DNA from: Halobaculum sp. CBA1158
GTDB lineage: Archaea > Halobacteriota > Halobacteria > Halobacteriales > Haloferacaceae
Reading direction: 5' to 3'
Length of the DNA: 64,000 nt
NCBI RefSeq assembly: GCF_021431925.1
Contig: NZ_CP090371.1
Location: 62,001-126,000, forward strand
Shown in pieces: positions 7,501 to 57,341 of the stretch. Made by a program: the position numbers and the translations under genes. The stretch's first letter is position 1, and the number at the start of each line of letters is the position of its first letter. The notes below the pieces were generated by a model. It was not told where the DNA came from. It saw nothing but the letters and a program-made list of their open reading frames with translations, and did no database searches.

Positions 7501-8427
7501 TTACTCGCGCTCGTCGCCGTCGCGGTCGGGATTCGGGTCCGTCGCGGGGTCGGGCTCGGCGGCCGGCTCCGGCTCGGCGGTCGTCACGTACTCGCGCACG
7601 TCGTCGCCGTCGAGGTCGAGCCCCTGTCGCGAGAAGAAGGAGGCGACGTTGCGGCAGTCGCGCTCGAGGAACTCCTCGGCGTTGGGGTGGTGAACCGTCG
7701 CCGCCTGTCCGAGATCGATGACGACCAGTTCGCCGTCGTGGATGATGAGGTTGTACTCAGAGAGGTCGCCGTGGACGAGCCCCGCCGAGTAGAGTCGGCG
7801 CATGTACTCGCGCACGACCTCGTAGGCGGTCTGCGGGTTCTCCACGTCGACCTCCGCGAGCCGGCGTGCGCGGTCGTCGGCGTGGCCCACCAGCTCCATC
7901 ACGAGCACGTTGCGCTGGACGGCGATCGGTTCGGGAACGCGGACGCCGGCCTTCCGGGCGCGCCGGAGGTTCGAGAACTCCTTGCGCACCCACGCGAGGA
8001 CGACCTTCTTCTTGTCCGAGCCGATGCCCTCGAAGCGCGGGTCGCCCTCGAGGTACTCGCGCATGTGGTGGAAGTTCGAGGCGTTGATCCGGTACACCTT
8101 CGCGGCCACCTCGCGCTCGTCGGCCCCGAGCGCCTCGTAGACGTTCGCCTCCTTGCCGGTGGAGACGGGGCCGCCGAAGGCGACGATGTGGCCGTCGCGG
8201 GTGAGCTTGTACAGCGCCGCCAGCGTGGCGTCGTCGAACACCGACGCCTCGACTTTGAACTGCTCGGTGTTCTTGATCCGCTTGCGGAACTCGTCGAACT
8301 CGTCGTCCTGTCGGCGTGCGATCTTGTCGGCCTCGGTCTGCGCGATCTCTTCGAGGTCGAGGTCTTCCCACTCGTCGCCGGGCGCGTCCGCCTCGTCGGA
8401 CTCGACGAACCCGAACTCTCCGGTCAT
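7501..8427 (-). CDS. rio1: Serine protein kinase Rio1
   Basis: A 308-residue RIO-type atypical kinase. The nucleotide loop is GGPVSTGKEANVYEA (the lysine and STGKEA signature of Rio1), the catalytic loop is LVHGDLSEYNL, and the metal-binding motif is VVIDLGQA. The N-terminus is acidic and the C-terminal 40 residues are a low-complexity acidic tail. Rio1 acts as an ATPase/kinase in late 40S/30S ribosome maturation. It sits between the eIF1A gene (102 bases away) and the Dim2-like gene on the same strand. Confidence 0.93.
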   Translation of the reverse strand: MTGEFGFVESDEADAPGDEWEDLDLEEIAQTEADKIARRQDDEFDEFRKRIKNTEQFKVEASVFDDATLAALYKLTRDGHIVAFGGPVSTGKEANVYEALGADEREVAAKVYRINASNFHHMREYLEGDPRFEGIGSDKKKVVLAWVRKEFSNLRRARKAGVRVPEPIAVQRNVLVMELVGHADDRARRLAEVDVENPQTAYEVVREYMRRLYSAGLVHGDLSEYNLIIHDGELVVIDLGQAATVHHPNAEEFLERDCRNVASFFSRQGLDLDGDDVREYVTTAEPEPAAEPDPATDPNPDRDGDERE

Positions 8428-8529
8428 CTACGGCGAGGTACGCGCCGGGGCGTGAAAAGCACCGGCACCGCGATCGTCCGTCGACGCCGCGCCCGTCGCG
8501 CGGGTGATCTCGTCGCCGTCGCCGACACG

Positions 8530-8820
8530 CTAGGCGATGTGGCCCTCCTCGCGCAGTTGGTCGGCCTCCTGGCTCTCGTACCGGTGCTCGATGTCCGCCT
8601 TCTCGTCCTGCCAGTCCCACGGGCTCACGAGGACGATGTCGCCCTCGCGGATCCAGGTGCGCTTTTGCATCCGGCCGGGGATGCGCGCGGTTCGTTCGGT
8701 GCCGTCGTTGCACCGCACCTTCACCCGGTTCGCGCCGAGCATGTCCGTCACCTCGGCGAACACCTCGTCGTCGTCGGGCATTCTGAGGTTCGTTCGGCCC
8801 GTCGCGTCGCCGTCGCTCAT
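8530..8820 (-). CDS. eif1a: Translation initiation factor 1A (eIF1A/aIF1A)
   Basis: Ninety-six residues from the ATG giving [11 protein letters not shown]; a longer open frame upstream is non-coding. The OB-fold S1-like core is clear: [35 protein letters not shown] and [14 protein letters not shown] are near-identical to archaeal aIF1A. It binds the A site of the small subunit and promotes scanning or start-codon selection. It heads the minus-strand group eIF1A, Rio1, Dim2-like. Confidence 0.93.
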
Positions 8821-8861
8821 AGTTCCGTGTTCTCGGTTCCGACAGTTAAACTCGGTGGGTG

Positions 8862-9012
8862 CGCGGTCGAACGGACGTGAGACCGCGACGACGCGAACGG
8901 GGAGTGGAACGACCCGTGAGTAGGTGCGAGGTGCGAGCGCAGCGAGCACCTCGAATCGAGCGGGGAGCGCGTCGCCGCGAGACGCTGCGCGGTCGAGCGT
9001 AGCGAGACCGCG
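8862..9012. repeat. Cluster of hairpins with conserved loop GARCG-N-AG-Y-GA
   Basis: Three perfect hairpins: CGCGGTC (8862-8868) pairs with GACCGCG (8881-8887); CGAGGTGC (8927-8934) pairs with GCACCTCG (8946-8953); CGCGGTC (8988-8994) pairs with GACCGCG (9006-9012). Stems differ in sequence but loops are alike: GAACGGACGTGA, GAGCGCAGCGA, GAGCGTAGCGA. The same loop occurs in the cluster at 15124-15296. Haloarchaeal intergenic regions are known to carry such repeats; function is not established. Confidence 0.7.
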
Positions 9013-9089
9013 GAAACGCGAACGGGAGCAGCGATCCCGACCGCGCGTCGACCCGCCGCCCTTTTCCCGGCCTGCGACCACGGGCGCGT

Positions 9090-10998: not shown

Positions 10999-12129
10999 CT
11001 ACCCCTCGATCCGCTCCAGCACGGCCTCGGGGTCGTACGCCAACGAGATCGACCGCGACCGCCCGCGCCCCTCGACCTCGGCGTACTCCGTCTCGACGAG
11101 TCCGAGTTGGTCCAGCTTGTTGACGATCTCCGAGTAGCGCGTGTAGCCCAGGTCGGTCCGGTCGTGGAACGCCTCGTAGACGGAGCCGGCCTGCTCGCCG
11201 TCGTGTTCCGCGAGCACCTCGACGAGCGCCGTCTCGGAGTCGGACAGCCCCCGCAGGCTCCGCGAGAGGTGGACGAACTTCGACTGCTCGTAGGCGGTCT
11301 CGATGTCCTCGCGGTTGATGCTGCGGGAGGCGCGCATCTCGGCGTTCAGCCCCGCCCGACGCAGCAGGTCGATGCCGACGCGGAGGTCGCCCGACTCGGC
11401 GGTCAGCTCGGCGACGCGGTCGAGTTCGGGCGCGCCGAGCACGCCCTCGTGAAAGCCGCGCTTGGCCCGCTCGCGGAGGATGTCGACCACCTCGTCGACG
11501 TCGTACTTCGGGAAGTACACCTCCTCCGGGCGGAACACCGACTGCACCCGCGAGTCCAACTCCTCGATGACCGACAGCGACAGGTCCGAGGAGACGCAGA
11601 TGACCCCGATCTTCGCGCCCGCGTGGGCCTCGTGGGCGCGCAACAGCGAGTACAGCGTGTCGGACGCCTCGTTCTCGTAGAACAGGTAGTTCACGTCGTC
11701 GAGCGCGACGACGAGCACCTCGTCGTCGTCGACGAGGCGGTCGGCGATCTGGCCGAACAGCTTCTTGAACGAGATGCCCGAGGAGGGCGGCTCGTAGTCG
11801 AAGATGCCCTCGAACACCCGCGAGAACACGGCGTATCGGGTGGAGTCGACCTGGCAGTTCACCCGGACCGTCCGCACGTCCGTCTGGGCGCGGAGTTCGC
11901 CGAACAGCTTCTGGACGGCCGTGGTCTTGCCGGTGCCGGGGGGGCCGCGGACGACGGTGTTGAGCGGGCGCGACCCGCGCGCGGCCGGTCGGAGCGCGTA
12001 CTTCAGCGACTCCAACTGGCTCTCCCGGTGGCGAAACGTCTCGGGAACGTAGTCGATCTCGAAGACGTGTTCGTCCCGGAAGACGGACTCGTCCCACGAG
12101 AGCATCTCGTCATCCGGGTCCCCGGACAT
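10999..12129 (-). CDS. Orc1/Cdc6 family replication initiator
   Basis: A 376-residue AAA+ protein: Walker A GPPGTGKTT at residues 63-71, Walker B VVALDDVNYLF near residue 150, and a C-terminal winged helix with YTRYSEIVNKLDQLGLV. Archaeal Orc1/Cdc6 proteins bind origin recognition boxes and load MCM. Haloarchaea carry many copies, often next to the origin they use. I looked in the 245-base upstream gap and saw no G-rich ORB repeat, so this copy may act elsewhere or as a regulator. Confidence 0.93.
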   Translation of the reverse strand: MSGDPDDEMLSWDESVFRDEHVFEIDYVPETFRHRESQLESLKYALRPAARGSRPLNTVVRGPPGTGKTTAVQKLFGELRAQTDVRTVRVNCQVDSTRYAVFSRVFEGIFDYEPPSSGISFKKLFGQIADRLVDDDEVLVVALDDVNYLFYENEASDTLYSLLRAHEAHAGAKIGVICVSSDLSLSVIEELDSRVQSVFRPEEVYFPKYDVDEVVDILRERAKRGFHEGVLGAPELDRVAELTAESGDLRVGIDLLRRAGLNAEMRASRSINREDIETAYEQSKFVHLSRSLRGLSDSETALVEVLAEHDGEQAGSVYEAFHDRTDLGYTRYSEIVNKLDQLGLVETEYAEVEGRGRSRSISLAYDPEAVLERIEG

Positions 12130-25877: not shown

Positions 25878-25899
25878 TCGTGTGGACGCTGGGGCCGAT

Positions 25900-27444
25900 A
25901 TGCCCAGTGGGAGTGACCCCGGTCGCGTGGAGGAATACACCGATCGACAGGTGGAACGCGTTAGGCGCACCGTCCAAGAACCAAATCGCTCGGACATCCT
26001 GAAAACTGTCCGGAAGGGGCGGCGAGGGAACATCGCGAGCCCGAAACCGAACCAGCGCACCAAGCCGTCGTGGAGCAAGGCGACAATCCGCAACAACGCT
26101 CGGGATCTCCGCATTCTTGCAGGACAACTGCAGGGGCTGGACGAGGTGGAGTACGAGGGTACGACGTGGACGGGTCGCGAGGGACGCGACGATTATCCCG
26201 ACCGTCTCCTCGATCTCACGCCCGAACAAGTGACCGAACTGATCACCGAGATGTCCATCGAACGCGACTGGGCAAGAAGCAACGAGCGAGATTACTGCCT
26301 GACCGTACGGAATCACTTTCTCGCGCACGACCGAGTCGAGACTGCCACGGAAATCGACTATCCGCAGGTCGGACTGGAAAACGCCGCCGTGGATATCGAG
26401 ACAGTTCCCAGCCGCGAGGATCTGCTCACGCTCATCGACAGCGAAAGCATCCGCGACAAGGCGATGTACACCGTTCTCTGGGAGTCGGGCTGTCGCGTCA
26501 CCGCCCTTGCCTCCCTGAAGATCAAGCACTGGAAGCCGAAGGGCGAGGGATACGGCGTCGTCCAAGTTCCCGGCGCCTACGTCACCGGTCTCAAGGGTGC
26601 CGAACACTCGGCGAAACCCATCACATTCGCACGCGGGTACTTGGACAACTGGCTATCGGAACACGAGCTGTCCGACGATCCCGAGGCTCCTCTCTTCCAC
26701 GGGATCCGCCCGCAAGATGATCCCTCCGAGCACCTGCACCCACACAGCGTTCACCAGCAACTCAAGCGGATCGCTCGTCGAACCGAGGAGATCGATGCCG
26801 AACACATCAGCCCGCACACCTTCAAGCACGGTCGCGCGAGCGAGATGCGGGCCTCCGACAAGTACAGCAAGGAAGATATCGAGCAGATCCTCGACTGGGA
26901 GGAGGGCACTCCGATGCACGGGAGATACGAACACGTCACGGAGATCGACGAGGCCGAACGTATCTTGAGAAAGCACGGCTTCGCGCCGACGGACGACGGC
27001 GACAGCGTCGAACACCGGGAGTGTCCTCGCTGCGGCACCATCGTGGACATAGATGCAGAGTACTGCCCGAAATGCTCGCTTCGGCAGCGCAACGAGCCCC
27101 CGCGCTGGTGGCGCATCTACCGCAGCATCACCGACGAGGACGATCCGGTTCGGGAGAAATATCGCGAAGAGCTACCGCCAGCCGACGCTGCCGAACTGGT
27201 TCCCGACCTCTTCGACCACGTGAAACGCGTGTTCCTGAGCGGGATGATCGGGGGTGCAGTCCGAAGCAAGGTTGACGGAGAACTTGCCGAAGAGCAGAAA
27301 GATACGTACCATCGGTCTATCGAAGACCCCGATGACAGGCAGTGGGTCTACGACAATATCAGCGGAATTGATCAACAGCACGTCGAAGAACATCCTCATG
27401 CAACGGACATCCGGCGTATCGAACCGAGCGAACTCGAAGGCTGA
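25900..27444 (+). CDS. Tyrosine recombinase/integrase with C-terminal zinc ribbon
   Basis: A 514-residue protein. A SAM-like core-binding domain (about 20-150) is followed by a catalytic domain: SGCRVTALASLK holds the first Arg, HTFKHGRASEM the His-x-x-Arg, and MHGRYEHVT the nucleophile Tyr. The H-x-x-R pair is intact. A zinc ribbon CPRCGTIV...CPKCSLRQ follows at residues about 370-395, then a helical tail. Such proteins integrate or excise mobile DNA; zinc ribbons after the catalytic domain are usual in haloarchaeal relatives. It is accompanied by a second recombinase (27901-29406) on the opposite strand. Confidence 0.85.
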   Translation: MPSGSDPGRVEEYTDRQVERVRRTVQEPNRSDILKTVRKGRRGNIASPKPNQRTKPSWSKATIRNNARDLRILAGQLQGLDEVEYEGTTWTGREGRDDYPDRLLDLTPEQVTELITEMSIERDWARSNERDYCLTVRNHFLAHDRVETATEIDYPQVGLENAAVDIETVPSREDLLTLIDSESIRDKAMYTVLWESGCRVTALASLKIKHWKPKGEGYGVVQVPGAYVTGLKGAEHSAKPITFARGYLDNWLSEHELSDDPEAPLFHGIRPQDDPSEHLHPHSVHQQLKRIARRTEEIDAEHISPHTFKHGRASEMRASDKYSKEDIEQILDWEEGTPMHGRYEHVTEIDEAERILRKHGFAPTDDGDSVEHRECPRCGTIVDIDAEYCPKCSLRQRNEPPRWWRIYRSITDEDDPVREKYREELPPADAAELVPDLFDHVKRVFLSGMIGGAVRSKVDGELAEEQKDTYHRSIEDPDDRQWVYDNISGIDQQHVEEHPHATDIRRIEPSELEG

Positions 27445-27900: not shown

Positions 27901-29406
27901 TTACGAGCCCTTGAAAATAGTTCGAAGGTCATCCTCCCCCTCACCCAACAATTCCATCACGCGATCGATGTTGATCCCATCGTATTCGGTCATCAAGGTG
28001 AATGCGACACTCTCTTTCGTTAGTTCGGGGTTGGAGTCCATCGCCTCAACTATATCAAGAGCGGTTTCCATCGAGCTAGCACTCACATCATAGTCACTAA
28101 TCCGTTCCCTCAGATTCGACTTGGCGGCATGATTCATCTCCGCTTTGTTACGCAGTCTCTCCACTTCTGAGTCCCCTGTTTGCTCGTCTCCGGTCAGGTT
28201 CGAGCCACACCAGAAACAGGCCTCCAAATGTTGGGGAGACCACTGCTCACAACTGGAGCATTTGATCGGCGAGGGCTCGACATAGTCCTCCGCGATTTGG
28301 ATCGGCGCACCGTCGATATCTGCGATCTGTTGGTTCGCTTCATCGCTGAATCTCGCGATGTAGTGTGCAGGAGCGGATGATCCAGCTTCCCAACCGAATC
28401 GGGTTCTAAGTGTGGATTGGTTGACCCCTTTCGCAGCGAGTATGCTCGCTCGACTTTTTCGAAATTGTTTGAGATTTGTTGGTCGACGATATCCGAGACG
28501 GTTTCCGATTCTACTACCACGCTGTTCAAATGTTGACTCCTTCAGTTTCTCGGAGTCTTTTTGTTTTGTCCATACCGGCTGGTCTGGAGGGAGGGACAGA
28601 GGCGAGGTCGGCAGTTTGACATCGTTGGTCATCTTGTCAACCTCCAAGAGCCACTTACGAAGGTACGGCATAGAGACCTGCAGGTGCGGGGTTCGATCGT
28701 ATGTTTTGCTGTCTTCCACCTCGAATAAGAAGTAATCCCCCCGGTCGGAAAGATGGCCAGCTTTCATCCTAAATATTTCCGAGGGGCGAGCACCCGAGTC
28801 CCATGCGACTGCGATCAGGGCCTTATCTCGCAAGTGAACTTTCCCAGAGTCCAAGATCGGAACGACTGACTCATCCCAATAATGAATATTACTTCGTTTA
28901 GGTGTTGGATCAGTGTCTTTTTGTCGTGGAGAGAGGCTAGAGATATTTTCGATGTGGCTCGGTCGACCATTGTCTCCCATAAGATCGCCGTACTGCCGAA
29001 CCATATTTCGATAATGCGACTCTGTTTTCGGCGCAATTCGATCGCCATCTTCGGTCTTGTGTTGAGTGATCCAATCTACGAACCGTTCTGCTGCGCTCGG
29101 TTCCTCTAAAAGTGCTTCAAGCGAGATGCTGTGAGCGGAGTCGTCGTACCCGTTCGGTGTTGGCGGATTTCGGTATCTACAGAAAGCGAGGGTCTTCTGC
29201 AAAAGAGTCGTATGATATCTGTCTTTTTTATGTCGGGTCAAGCGTTCATCAAATTCTATCAGCAGCGGTTTGTCTTCTGAATCGACGGGAAGGGATTCCA
29301 TGGCTTGGTGTTCCGGGGCATCCTCGTGACACCGCTGTATGACCGTTCCGTCAGTCGGTACCTCCCGAATGGTTGCCTGCACCCGAGCGAGGCGTTCCTG
29401 AGTCAT
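27901..29406 (-). CDS. Second tyrosine recombinase with zinc ribbon
   Basis: A 501-residue protein, organised like the recombinase at 25900 but distant in sequence. SGARPSEIFRM has the first Arg; LKQFRKSRASILAAKG occupies the position of H-x-x-R but a clear His is missing (Gln/Phe instead), so activity is uncertain; PAHYIARFSDE holds the Tyr. A zinc ribbon CSSCEQWSPQHLEACFWCG follows, then an acidic helical C-terminus. It points towards the recombinase at 25900. Two recombinases of different type may reflect two integration events. Confidence 0.82.
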   Translation of the reverse strand: MTQERLARVQATIREVPTDGTVIQRCHEDAPEHQAMESLPVDSEDKPLLIEFDERLTRHKKDRYHTTLLQKTLAFCRYRNPPTPNGYDDSAHSISLEALLEEPSAAERFVDWITQHKTEDGDRIAPKTESHYRNMVRQYGDLMGDNGRPSHIENISSLSPRQKDTDPTPKRSNIHYWDESVVPILDSGKVHLRDKALIAVAWDSGARPSEIFRMKAGHLSDRGDYFLFEVEDSKTYDRTPHLQVSMPYLRKWLLEVDKMTNDVKLPTSPLSLPPDQPVWTKQKDSEKLKESTFEQRGSRIGNRLGYRRPTNLKQFRKSRASILAAKGVNQSTLRTRFGWEAGSSAPAHYIARFSDEANQQIADIDGAPIQIAEDYVEPSPIKCSSCEQWSPQHLEACFWCGSNLTGDEQTGDSEVERLRNKAEMNHAAKSNLRERISDYDVSASSMETALDIVEAMDSNPELTKESVAFTLMTEYDGINIDRVMELLGEGEDDLRTIFKGS

Positions 29407-55348: not shown

Positions 55349-55706
55349 CAGCGTCACCTCCAACCCCTATGGAATCGCTTTGAGGAGAGGGTGAAGCGAC
55401 TCTTCAGCCCTCTTAATTGATGGCGAGAGGTTATGAATGGGTTGTCTCTCCCGGGCCGATCAACTGATCGTGCCAATCTTCCAGATAACCGTCTTCCGGC
55501 TGGTTGAATGTCAGTGCCTCTCCATCGTGGTCTTAGATGGCCAGTCATGCCTGTCTCGATCATTGTTTGCCCGTCTCCTGTGGTCGCTCTATAGCACCGA
55601 CTGCTGGTGCTGCCCTCGAGGATCTACCCCGGGTAAATAAGAATTATGTCAGGAGTGGGATCTCGATGACTCCGGCCGTATTTATGGACAATAGGTATGA
55701 GTGGAA

Positions 55707-55803
55707 TGCCCCGCTCAAAGAAGCGGTAAATTAGTTGCACCCTCCCAAAGGGCCAACAGCCCACCGCAGTCCGTGCGGTGAGTGCCGCCGACTGAGCGGG
55801 GCA
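55707..55803. ncRNA. Candidate three-branched structured RNA
   Basis: An 11-bp perfect stem (TGCCCCGCTCA 55707-55717 with TGAGCGGGGCA 55793-55803) encloses two further stem-loops: GTTG...CCC/GGG..CAAC (55734-55757) and CACCGCA/TGCGGTG (55762-55780). A competing hairpin CCGCT/AGCGG lies at 55711-55726. A TATA-like TATTTAT (55679-55685) is 25 bases upstream on the plus strand; a possible minus-strand TATA also exists, so the strand is unsettled. No terminator seen. Structure is from the sequence; an RNA is inference. Confidence 0.4.
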
Positions 55804-55898
55804 ACAGCATATAGTGACGTGATAAAAATGGGTGTAATACTGCCGGTAGATGTTGCAGGTTCTCCTCTTGATGACCTCACCTGACGTTCCCGCGGGAG

Positions 55899-55985
55899 CA
55901 CACACCCCGTGTCTTGAATGAATATCTCGGCCCTCCACCTCTGTAGAGTCTCGGAGACTCTGGCACACACCCCTCGTCTTGAATG
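55899..55985 (-). repeat. Two ORB-like G-rich repeats (minus orientation)
   Basis: Read on the minus strand, copies at 55964-55985 and 55899-55920 begin CATTCAAGAC and end GGGGTGTGTG, 65 bases apart. Between them is a perfect palindrome AGAGTCTC-G-GAGACTCT (55945-55961). The G-rich half recalls haloarchaeal origin recognition boxes. Copies in the opposite orientation lie at 57171-57333. Confidence 0.6.
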
Positions 55986-56083
55986 TAATTGCGAATCACG
56001 CTCCGTGAGAGAGGAGCCCTCACTCGATACTTTCTGTTATCGGAAAGGCAACATATTCTATCATACAGTGCATTGTCCCGAGT

Positions 56084-56389
56084 ATGGAACGCCGCGAGTT
56101 CTTCGTAGCGGCTGCTGCTACGCCCATCGTGGGGTTTCCCGACTTTGAGAAGGCGCAGAGCGATTCCTCGAAGCTTCCAGACTCAGATGATCCGATGGTT
56201 TGGTTTGGCCTGCTCTCCGTGGCTGTAGAAGCGCCGGTCGACGAGGCGGAGGCGCTTGAGGCAGCTGAGTGGATTCGTGATGACCGCGAGATAGAGGAAG
56301 CGATACAACGGGCAGCTCGGGACGAGTACGACGAAGATGAACTGATCGAACGGTTTGTTGCGACATCGGACTGGGTGGAGTATGAGTGA
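56084..56389 (+). CDS. Small protein with Tat-signal-like N-terminus
   Basis: A 101-residue protein beginning MERREFFVAAAATPIVGF, with an arginine pair followed by a hydrophobic stretch, much like a short twin-arginine signal. The rest is acidic and helical (DDREIEEAIQRAARDEYDED). The tatC genes of this window would provide the export machinery. No lipobox cysteine. The last eight bases overlap the next gene, so the two are likely coupled. Function unknown. Confidence 0.5.
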   Translation: MERREFFVAAAATPIVGFPDFEKAQSDSSKLPDSDDPMVWFGLLSVAVEAPVDEAEALEAAEWIRDDREIEEAIQRAARDEYDEDELIERFVATSDWVEYE

Positions 56390-56780
56390 CGAGCTTCCTT
56401 CACACTCTGAATTGGATGATCTCCCGGATGTGATCCTTGAGCCGCCAGAACGGTTCGACCGGATCGAGAACCGGATCGGGTGTTGTGGCGTGAAACCGAA
56501 CCTCGTCTATGGTGGGTATGTCCATCGGATTTGGGTGACGCACGCCGTCGATTTCGTTCGGGAAGTGTATGACGGAGATGTCGACGCCTATGTAGATATG
56601 TTCGCACCCAATCTCTGTTCCCCAGAGGTAGAGAAAGAAATGCGGGAAGCTGTCAAGCAGGCTCTCGAGTTCCACGACGAATACGAGCGAGAATTCGAGA
56701 CACTGCGTGAGTACCGAGAACAGGAGTGGCAGCGGATCCGTGAGGAGAGCAGTAACAGTGGCTCAGATACCGTCCAATAG
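56382..56780 (+). CDS. Small unknown protein coupled to the gene at 56084
   Basis: A 132-residue protein from the ATG overlapping the previous stop. Middle part GCCGVKPNLVYGGYVHRIWV has a Cys pair; the C-terminal half is a long charged helix (EKEMREAVKQALEFHDEYER, EFETLREYREQEWQRI). No family recognised. Together with the Tat-like gene it could form an exported pair and its cytoplasmic partner, but that is guesswork. Confidence 0.5.
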   Translation: MSDELPSHSELDDLPDVILEPPERFDRIENRIGCCGVKPNLVYGGYVHRIWVTHAVDFVREVYDGDVDAYVDMFAPNLCSPEVEKEMREAVKQALEFHDEYEREFETLREYREQEWQRIREESSNSGSDTVQ

Positions 56781-56990
56781 CTCCTGTAGCTCCCGCATTT
56801 TCTGCTCAGCTTCCCACTCCTCCGTCTTCTCGTGTTCTCCAGCGATTCGATAGGAGTGGGCGACGAGCGAGTTCACGCTTGCCAGAAAGTTCTGCATATT
56901 GTGTCGTAGCTGCTCGTCTGACTCGCTGCTTTCCAGCTCTTCGTAGTTCCTCCTCAGGATCTCCATTGTTGTGCCAAGGTCATCGGGCAT
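56763..56990 (-). CDS. Small helical protein, unknown
   Basis: A 75-residue, helical, acidic protein (MPDDLGTTMEILRRNYEELE; HNMQNFLASVNSLVAH). The end overlaps the end of the convergent gene by 18 bases, which is compatible with coding but not proof. No family recognised. Confidence 0.4.
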   Translation of the reverse strand: MPDDLGTTMEILRRNYEELESSESDEQLRHNMQNFLASVNSLVAHSYRIAGEHEKTEEWEAEQKMRELQELLDGI

Positions 56991-57341
56991 ATCCGGATCC
57001 GATGACTCAACCCTAATGAATGCCGGCCTGCAGCTGTTCTGACGTCTCTTTGACTGTGATGGCGTTCTGGCCTATTCCCGTAGGCACCATACTAACTTCA
57101 CGGCTCTAATCAGTACGTCACGACCGGGATTTTAGAGTTCCACGAGAAACAGAGGGGTTAGAGTAGATTTCATTCAAGACGTGGGGTGTGTGGGTATCCA
57201 ACTGGACTCCGGGACTGGTGAACTGTATTCTTGAGTTTTCATTCAAGACGTGGCGTGTGTGGGTGCTCAATTCAACTGCGGTGTCGATGATCTATACTCT
57301 CAAGCTTACATTCAAGACGTGGGGCGTGTGGGTAGATTTTG
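56991..57341. other. 351-base region without genes, containing three tandem repeats
   Basis: No supported gene. Its right half (57171-57333) carries three ORB-like repeats at an exact 69-base period. The spacer segments resemble each other moderately, mainly through transitions, so this looks like a diverged tandem array and not a CRISPR. Confidence 0.6.
57171..57333 (+). repeat. Three tandem ORB-like repeats, 69-base period
   Basis: Copies begin at 57171, 57240 and 57309. Each reads CATTCAAGACG followed by TGG(G/C)G(T/C)GTGTGGGT. They are the inverted counterpart of the two copies at 55899-55985. Inverted, G-rich repeats flanking about 1.2 kb resemble the layout of haloarchaeal origins. Confidence 0.65.

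Follow-up and report, generated by a model that had tools for sequence, protein, structure and literature searches.

Inverted ORB-type boxes bracket a three-gene cassette with no adjacent orc1/cdc6 gene in Halobaculum sp. CBA1158

What might a cluster of inverted, ORB-like boxes do at a site that has no orc1/cdc6 gene beside it? This question is raised by a locus in Halobaculum sp. CBA1158 (GCF_021431925.1), a haloarchaeon whose 3.32-Mb genome is assembled in four contigs. The locus lies on contig NZ_CP090371.1 (C1) within a stretch of 64,000 nt (C1:62001-126000) that was analyzed as a whole and is referred to here as the window; coordinates are those of the window unless a contig is named.

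The initial annotation had reported five repeats, two in one orientation and three in the opposite one, and all of them were present. They share the consensus CATTCAAGAC(G/A)NGG(G/C)G(T/C)GTGTG, of which the minus strand carries two copies (55899-55985) and the plus strand three (57171-57330). The CATTCAAGAC cores occupy positions 55911-55920 and 55976-55985 (minus) and 57171-57180, 57240-57249 and 57309-57318 (plus). The features of the locus, in order, are:

55899..55920, minus strand: box L1, ORB-type (CATTCAAGACACGGGGTGTGTG), G-string outward
55945..55961, no strand: palindrome AGAGTCTC-G-GAGACTCT, 17 nt, in the gap between L1 and L2, read from the sequence
55964..55985, minus strand: box L2, ORB-type (CATTCAAGACGAGGGGTGTGTG), G-string outward
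56018..56086, plus strand: 69-bp segment that leads up to and covers the start of gene 1, invariant in four genera by alignment
56084..56389, plus strand: gene 1, 101 aa, no known family
56382..56780, plus strand: gene 2, 132 aa, overlapping gene 1 (ATGA)
56763..56990, minus strand: gene 3, 75 aa, convergent to gene 2
57171..57192, plus strand: box R1, ORB-type (CATTCAAGACGTGGGGTGTGTG), G-string outward
57240..57261, plus strand: box R2, ORB-type (CATTCAAGACGTGGCGTGTGTG)
57309..57330, plus strand: box R3, ORB-type (CATTCAAGACGTGGGGCGTGTG)

With the left boxes on the minus strand and the right boxes on the plus strand, every G-rich end points out of the interval and every TTTCATTC end into it. 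Left and right boxes, compared pairwise, were 86-92% complementary across 22-26 nt, and the copies are spaced by 69 and 69 nt on the right and by 65 nt on the left. The G-rich end described for each copy is present but varies between boxes, with R2 (GGCGTGTGTG) and R3 (GGGGCGTGTG) deviating. The palindrome with 8-bp arms noted between the left copies is real, but its sequence was not kept in the relatives aligned. The core 10-mer occurred five times in the window against 0.13 expected, a count that none of 100 dinucleotide shuffles reached. Amongst all sites in the 3.32-Mb genome with at most three mismatches to the 22-mer CATTCAAGACGWGGSGYGTGTG, only the five boxes were recovered, and the reversed control gave no occurrence in the whole genome at the same threshold. 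Searches elsewhere yielded an exact 22-mer match in a lone Ensifer contig of the genome contig collection, as well as chance-like 20-mer and 16-mer matches in viral contigs, and these were set aside.

The boxes were compared with plasmid ORBs by a blastn search of a 30-nt consensus (TTTTCATTCAAGACGTGGGGTGTGTGGGTA) against 72,556 plasmid records. Of the 35 records matched, 34 were haloarchaeal, and in none of these did an annotated gene underlie the match (three records carry no annotation). The reversed query gave a single match in this plasmid collection, in a bacterial record inside a Legionella gene, and the consensus matched phage records only in bacterial phages. An orc1/cdc6 gene adjoined 20 of the 21 matches inspected, including one on a Halolamina plasmid whose neighbouring gene is annotated as an AAA ATPase and was recognized as an Orc homologue by tblastn; the exception is a set of three boxes on a plasmid of Halomicrobium urmianum, where an Orc homologue is absent from the surrounding 9 kb. 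Single-box matches were weak (E 0.4 to 5), so the case for ORBs rests on the collective pattern. The matched records are not independent of each other and represent mainly two Orc groups, one with an Orc of 425 aa and the ORB TTTTCACTCTGGACGAGGGGTGTGTGGGT, the other with Orc4 of 410 aa and the ORB ATTACGACGGAAACGTGGGGTGTGTGGGT.

The closest ORB was TTTTCACTCTGGACGAGGGGTGTGTGGGT of the 425-aa group, with 25 of 29 positions identical to the box and a geometry that is also inverted and G-outward. This group is found at plasmid origins of Natrinema sp. J7-2 (pJ7-1), N. versiforme (pNVE500) and Halorubrum trapanicum (pCBA1232-01), which resemble the locus in the 29-nt box, the G-string GGGGTGTGTGGGT, the inverted, G-outward arrangement and the intergenic position. 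Unlike the boxes studied here, these plasmid ORBs adjoin an orc1/cdc6 gene and have about 370-470 bp of mostly AT-richer DNA between the inner boxes, whereas the present locus has no orc gene and three genes in the 1.2 kb between its inner boxes. A weight matrix built from seven orc-linked ORBs ranked the five boxes 1 to 5 of 407,552 positions in the window and neighbouring chromosome, which is a check and not a proof because some of the seven ORBs were picked by similarity to the query. The ORBs of the strain's own oriC1 (GTTCCACACGAAACGAGGGGGTGGGGGG) and the boxes at its own Orcs on C2, on C3 and at C1:1.74 Mb share the general design of the five boxes, but their sequences are different. By definition, an ORB includes a TTTCA half and a halophile-specific G-string (PMC3528665), and the dyad/TTTCA half followed by such a G-string was found in the five boxes. 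Altogether, the assignment of the boxes to the haloarchaeal ORB type is well supported at the sequence level, as is their standing as candidate binding sites of Orc1/Cdc6 of the haloarchaeal plasmid type. The comparison with known ORBs that the initial annotation proposed was thus favorable, as the consensus retrieved plasmid ORBs adjacent to orc1/cdc6 and the reversed control did not; likewise, the noted resemblance to haloarchaeal origins held, with G-strings pointing outward here as at real origins.

The inner boxes L2 and R1 are 1,185 bp apart and enclose the three small genes. The invariant segment at the start of gene 1 is a probable promoter, judging from the TATA/BRE-like ACATATTC and CGGAAAG, and its AT content was not above the island background in the AT profile. 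The N-terminus of the gene 1 product (MERREFF) resembles a twin-arginine motif and may represent one. The C-terminal half of the gene 2 product aligned, via an intermediate, with a DUF433 (antitoxin-like) protein, and the gene 3 product was predicted to form a three-helix bundle (pLDDT 82), with no significant match of this fold in the PDB. No close relatives of genes 1-3 were found in plasmids, nor of genes 2-3 in viral contigs.

A sample of 392 genomes from the order and 170 from the family showed that the box-bracketed unit is present in four genera of one family, represented by the strain itself (G000) and by genomes G071, G091 and G104. Between the boxes, sequence identity among the four genomes is mostly 89-98%, and the flanks have changed. 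The number of boxes varies (two left and three right in the strain itself, one and three in G071, two and four in G091, two and one in G104), and the orientation of the unit relative to shared flanks is the same in all genomes. The G104 sequence stops matching the window unit almost precisely where L1 and R1 have their outer edges; thus, the unit appears to move as a box-bounded block. From these alignments, the cassette appears to be a conserved, horizontally moving set of three genes with no orc of its own. In G091, an insertion sequence flanked by an 8-bp duplication (AATCACGA) splits the unit between L2 and gene 1 (L036 1-130 / L037 11905-12035); the contig break inside that unit was accordingly read as this insertion and not as a circular form. 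Gene 3 homologues were found in only 6 of the 392 genomes of the order, and the 16-bp box CATTCAAGACGWGGSG is carried by five of these six. The distance from box to gene 3 was about 3 kb or less in the four genomes checked (the strain itself, G104, G174 and G225). G174 and G225 represent two further genera, belong to another family and carry one and two boxes, respectively, in the same orientation and with no inverted pair. The G174 box and one of the G225 boxes lie just downstream of gene 3' ends, another G225 box is upstream of the gene 3 operon, and both genomes likewise diverge at a box; in G225, a small tyrosine recombinase is found near the boxes.

Does an orc gene accompany the boxes anywhere? 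The absence of an orc1/cdc6 gene next to the repeats, noted from the start, was borne out; the nearest lies at 10999-12129, about 44 kb away, and no orc gene was found in the stretches read to the right of the window. Near the units or boxes of G091, G104, G174 and G225, the stretches read likewise contained none; in G071, an orc gene lies about 20 kb from the unit, and in G091 a distant Orc homologue lies about 43 kb away (C8:24282). The strain's own Orcs reach at best 36% identity to the 425-aa plasmid class with the closest ORBs. Several of its Orc paralogues have no recognized ORB, and its own orc-linked ORBs differ from the boxes. An Orc with the exact ORB class of the cassette (CATTCAAGACGTGGGG boxes) was found in no genome searched. 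As candidate cognates, the Orcs of G071, G104, G174, G021 and G225 (48-58% identity to the plasmid class) were rejected, as their ORBs differ, and the Orc beside a box match in G057 was rejected because it has its own, different ORBs (ATAACTCAGGAAAACTGCTGTGTG).

Single plasmid-class boxes were also observed adjoining an Orc gene of another group, in G057 (L039 4952) and on the Halolamina plasmid (L157 2501), which suggests that stray foreign-class ORBs are no rarity. On the Halomicrobium urmianum plasmid unnamed2 (L161), an inverted array of plasmid-class ORBs at 8286-9029 adjoins a gene for an ATP-dependent DNA helicase; lacking any Orc homologue within 9 kb, it is a second orc-less example.

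These observations bear on whether the locus is a replication origin, as had been proposed. Orc-dependent haloarchaeal origins have an adjacent orc1/cdc6 gene and an AT-rich unwinding element (PMC3528665, PMC3936714). The locus, 119 kb from oriC1, does have at least two inverted ORBs. It has no adjacent orc1/cdc6, and no AT-rich element was found between L2 and R1, where the best 60 bp are 62% AT, equal to the island median for comparable stretches, against 63-75% between the inner ORBs of orc-linked plasmid origins. Because these two defining features fail, we did not file the locus as an origin, although it could still act as one with an Orc supplied in trans. The proposal of a replication origin is therefore only partly supported: the inverted, G-outward boxes of ORB type speak for it, and the lack of an AT-rich element, the three genes inside and the orc-less state of the unit in four of four genomes speak against it.

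A low-GC island of about 70 kb (about C1:84-153 kb), rich in defence-type genes, surrounds the unit, which has a roughly central position in it. The suggestion that the site belongs to an integrated plasmid was not supported, since no partition, conjugation or replication gene was present among the approximately 40 island proteins scanned with Pfam, which are part of the island genes. Two tyrosine integrases are encoded in the left part of the island (25882-27444 and 27901-29406). At 29778-53155, a defence-type region contains a McrBC pair and a DUF499/DUF1156 methylase/SNF2 helicase set, for which the best PADLOC matches include HmaA, HmaB and HmaC, together with a weakly FokI-nuclease-like protein and a Schlafen/AlbA protein. 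Further genes there encode a UvrD-like helicase and a PD-(D/E)XK protein, then a MazF-like toxin pair. To the left of L1, a 131-nt stretch (55690-55820) folds far better than its shuffles (z -4.4); an 11-bp stem closes the structure, which has hairpins inside. The stretch falls in about 227 bp absent from G104, matched neither Rfam at the gathering threshold nor any plasmid, and is possibly a structured RNA or a small mobile hairpin element.

Our preferred reading, tentative at a probability of about 0.45, is that the locus is an orphan, ORB-bracketed cassette to which a plasmid-type Orc would bind in trans, with Orc capture (titration and/or promoter control) and not independent firing as its main role. 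It starts from what was observed directly, namely the identity of the boxes, the conservation of the unit and the lack of both a nearby orc gene and an AT-rich element. An Orc1/Cdc6 made elsewhere, by a co-resident or incoming plasmid or by an orphan Orc paralogue of the host, would bind the boxes; going by known ORB structures, its AAA+ domain would read the G-string and its winged helix the CATTCAAG half. The boxes would then titrate the initiator and/or let Orc control the promoters adjoining the inner boxes, which might be those at L2, before genes 1-2, and at R1, before gene 3. Orc capture is favored over independent firing because there is no distinct unwinding element and because relatives exist with a single box; it is chiefly the association of gene 3 with single boxes that prompts the preference. 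Weighing against Orc capture are the failure to find an Orc of the exact ORB class in any genome and the origin-like arrangement, an inverted set of two and three boxes with outward G-strings, which titration would not need. The distance of R2 and R3 from any promoter counts against promoter control. In short, we read the locus from its sequence as a site of titration or control, or else as an origin that is not autonomous.

A non-autonomous or dormant origin is the main rival to Orc capture, although we consider it rather unlikely. Its inverted ORBs would assemble Orc/Cdc6 supplied in trans and would fire conditionally, or did so formerly on a plasmid that lost its orc gene. The outward G-strings on sides of two and three boxes, as at orc-linked origins, the orc-less array of the same class in Halomicrobium urmianum and the existence of dormant origins in haloarchaea (PMC4595724) are in its favor. 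It fits less well with a best 60-bp AT content of 0.62, equal to the island median, against 0.63-0.75 at orc-linked plasmid origins, with inner boxes separated by 1,185 bp and three genes instead of about 370-470 bp, and with own Orcs of at most 36% identity to the plasmid class. Additionally, the dormant origins on record have a cdc6 beside them (PMC4595724). Those of Haloferax mediterranei, oriC4-cdc6H and oriP1-cdc6L (PMC4595724), share with the present locus inverted ORBs, a variable chromosomal context and horizontal acquisition, but they carry, and depend on, the adjacent cdc6 that is lacking here. For Orc capture, a close parallel amongst the systems compared is oriC2D of Haloarcula hispanica, an ORB-rich region that titrates Cdc6E (PMC3936714). 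Both are ORB clusters apart from a firing origin for which initiator titration is proposed, but oriC2D sits directly downstream of its own cdc6E, whereas here an orc gene is missing and a cassette is enclosed by the boxes.

The limits of the unit in G104 and the divergence of G174 and G225 at a box, along with the recombinase near the G225 boxes, would also suit recombinase or transposase sites (Tn7-like multi-site ends, or sites of a tyrosine recombinase) in which the ORB likeness is secondary. This is quite improbable: the unit contains no recombinase or transposase, no target duplication was seen by eye, so that the features of a Tn7-like or multi-site transposon were lacking, the orientation relative to shared flanks is constant in all genomes, and the boxes match orc-linked ORBs. 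Operators of an ordinary transcription factor controlling genes 1-3 would account for the placement of L2 and R1 upstream of two operons in the same relative orientation, and for the box upstream of the gene 3 operon in G225. With L1, R2 and R3 distant from promoters, the single G174 box and one in G225 placed just past the 3' ends of genes, and the retrieval of orc-linked ORBs left unexplained, we regard this as very improbable.

A further, improbable variant is a plasmid-sensing or exclusion cassette, in which ORBs of a plasmid Orc class, set in a chromosomal defence island, would sense or capture the initiator that an incoming plasmid brings and block replication of that plasmid by titration and/or switch on the small genes between the boxes, one of them DUF433-like and one small and helical. 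If true, this would amount to an archaeal anti-plasmid immunity based on the initiator. In the main survey of haloarchaeal origins, only ORBs touching orc1/cdc6 were taken, a limit stated there (PMC3528665), and ORB-type boxes kept as an orc-less unit across genera fall outside the scope of such orc-anchored surveys. The unit offers a concrete test of whether Orc acts in trans on orphan boxes, be it to titrate, regulate or initiate, and searches for the boxes themselves can uncover origin-related elements that orc-anchored surveys have missed.
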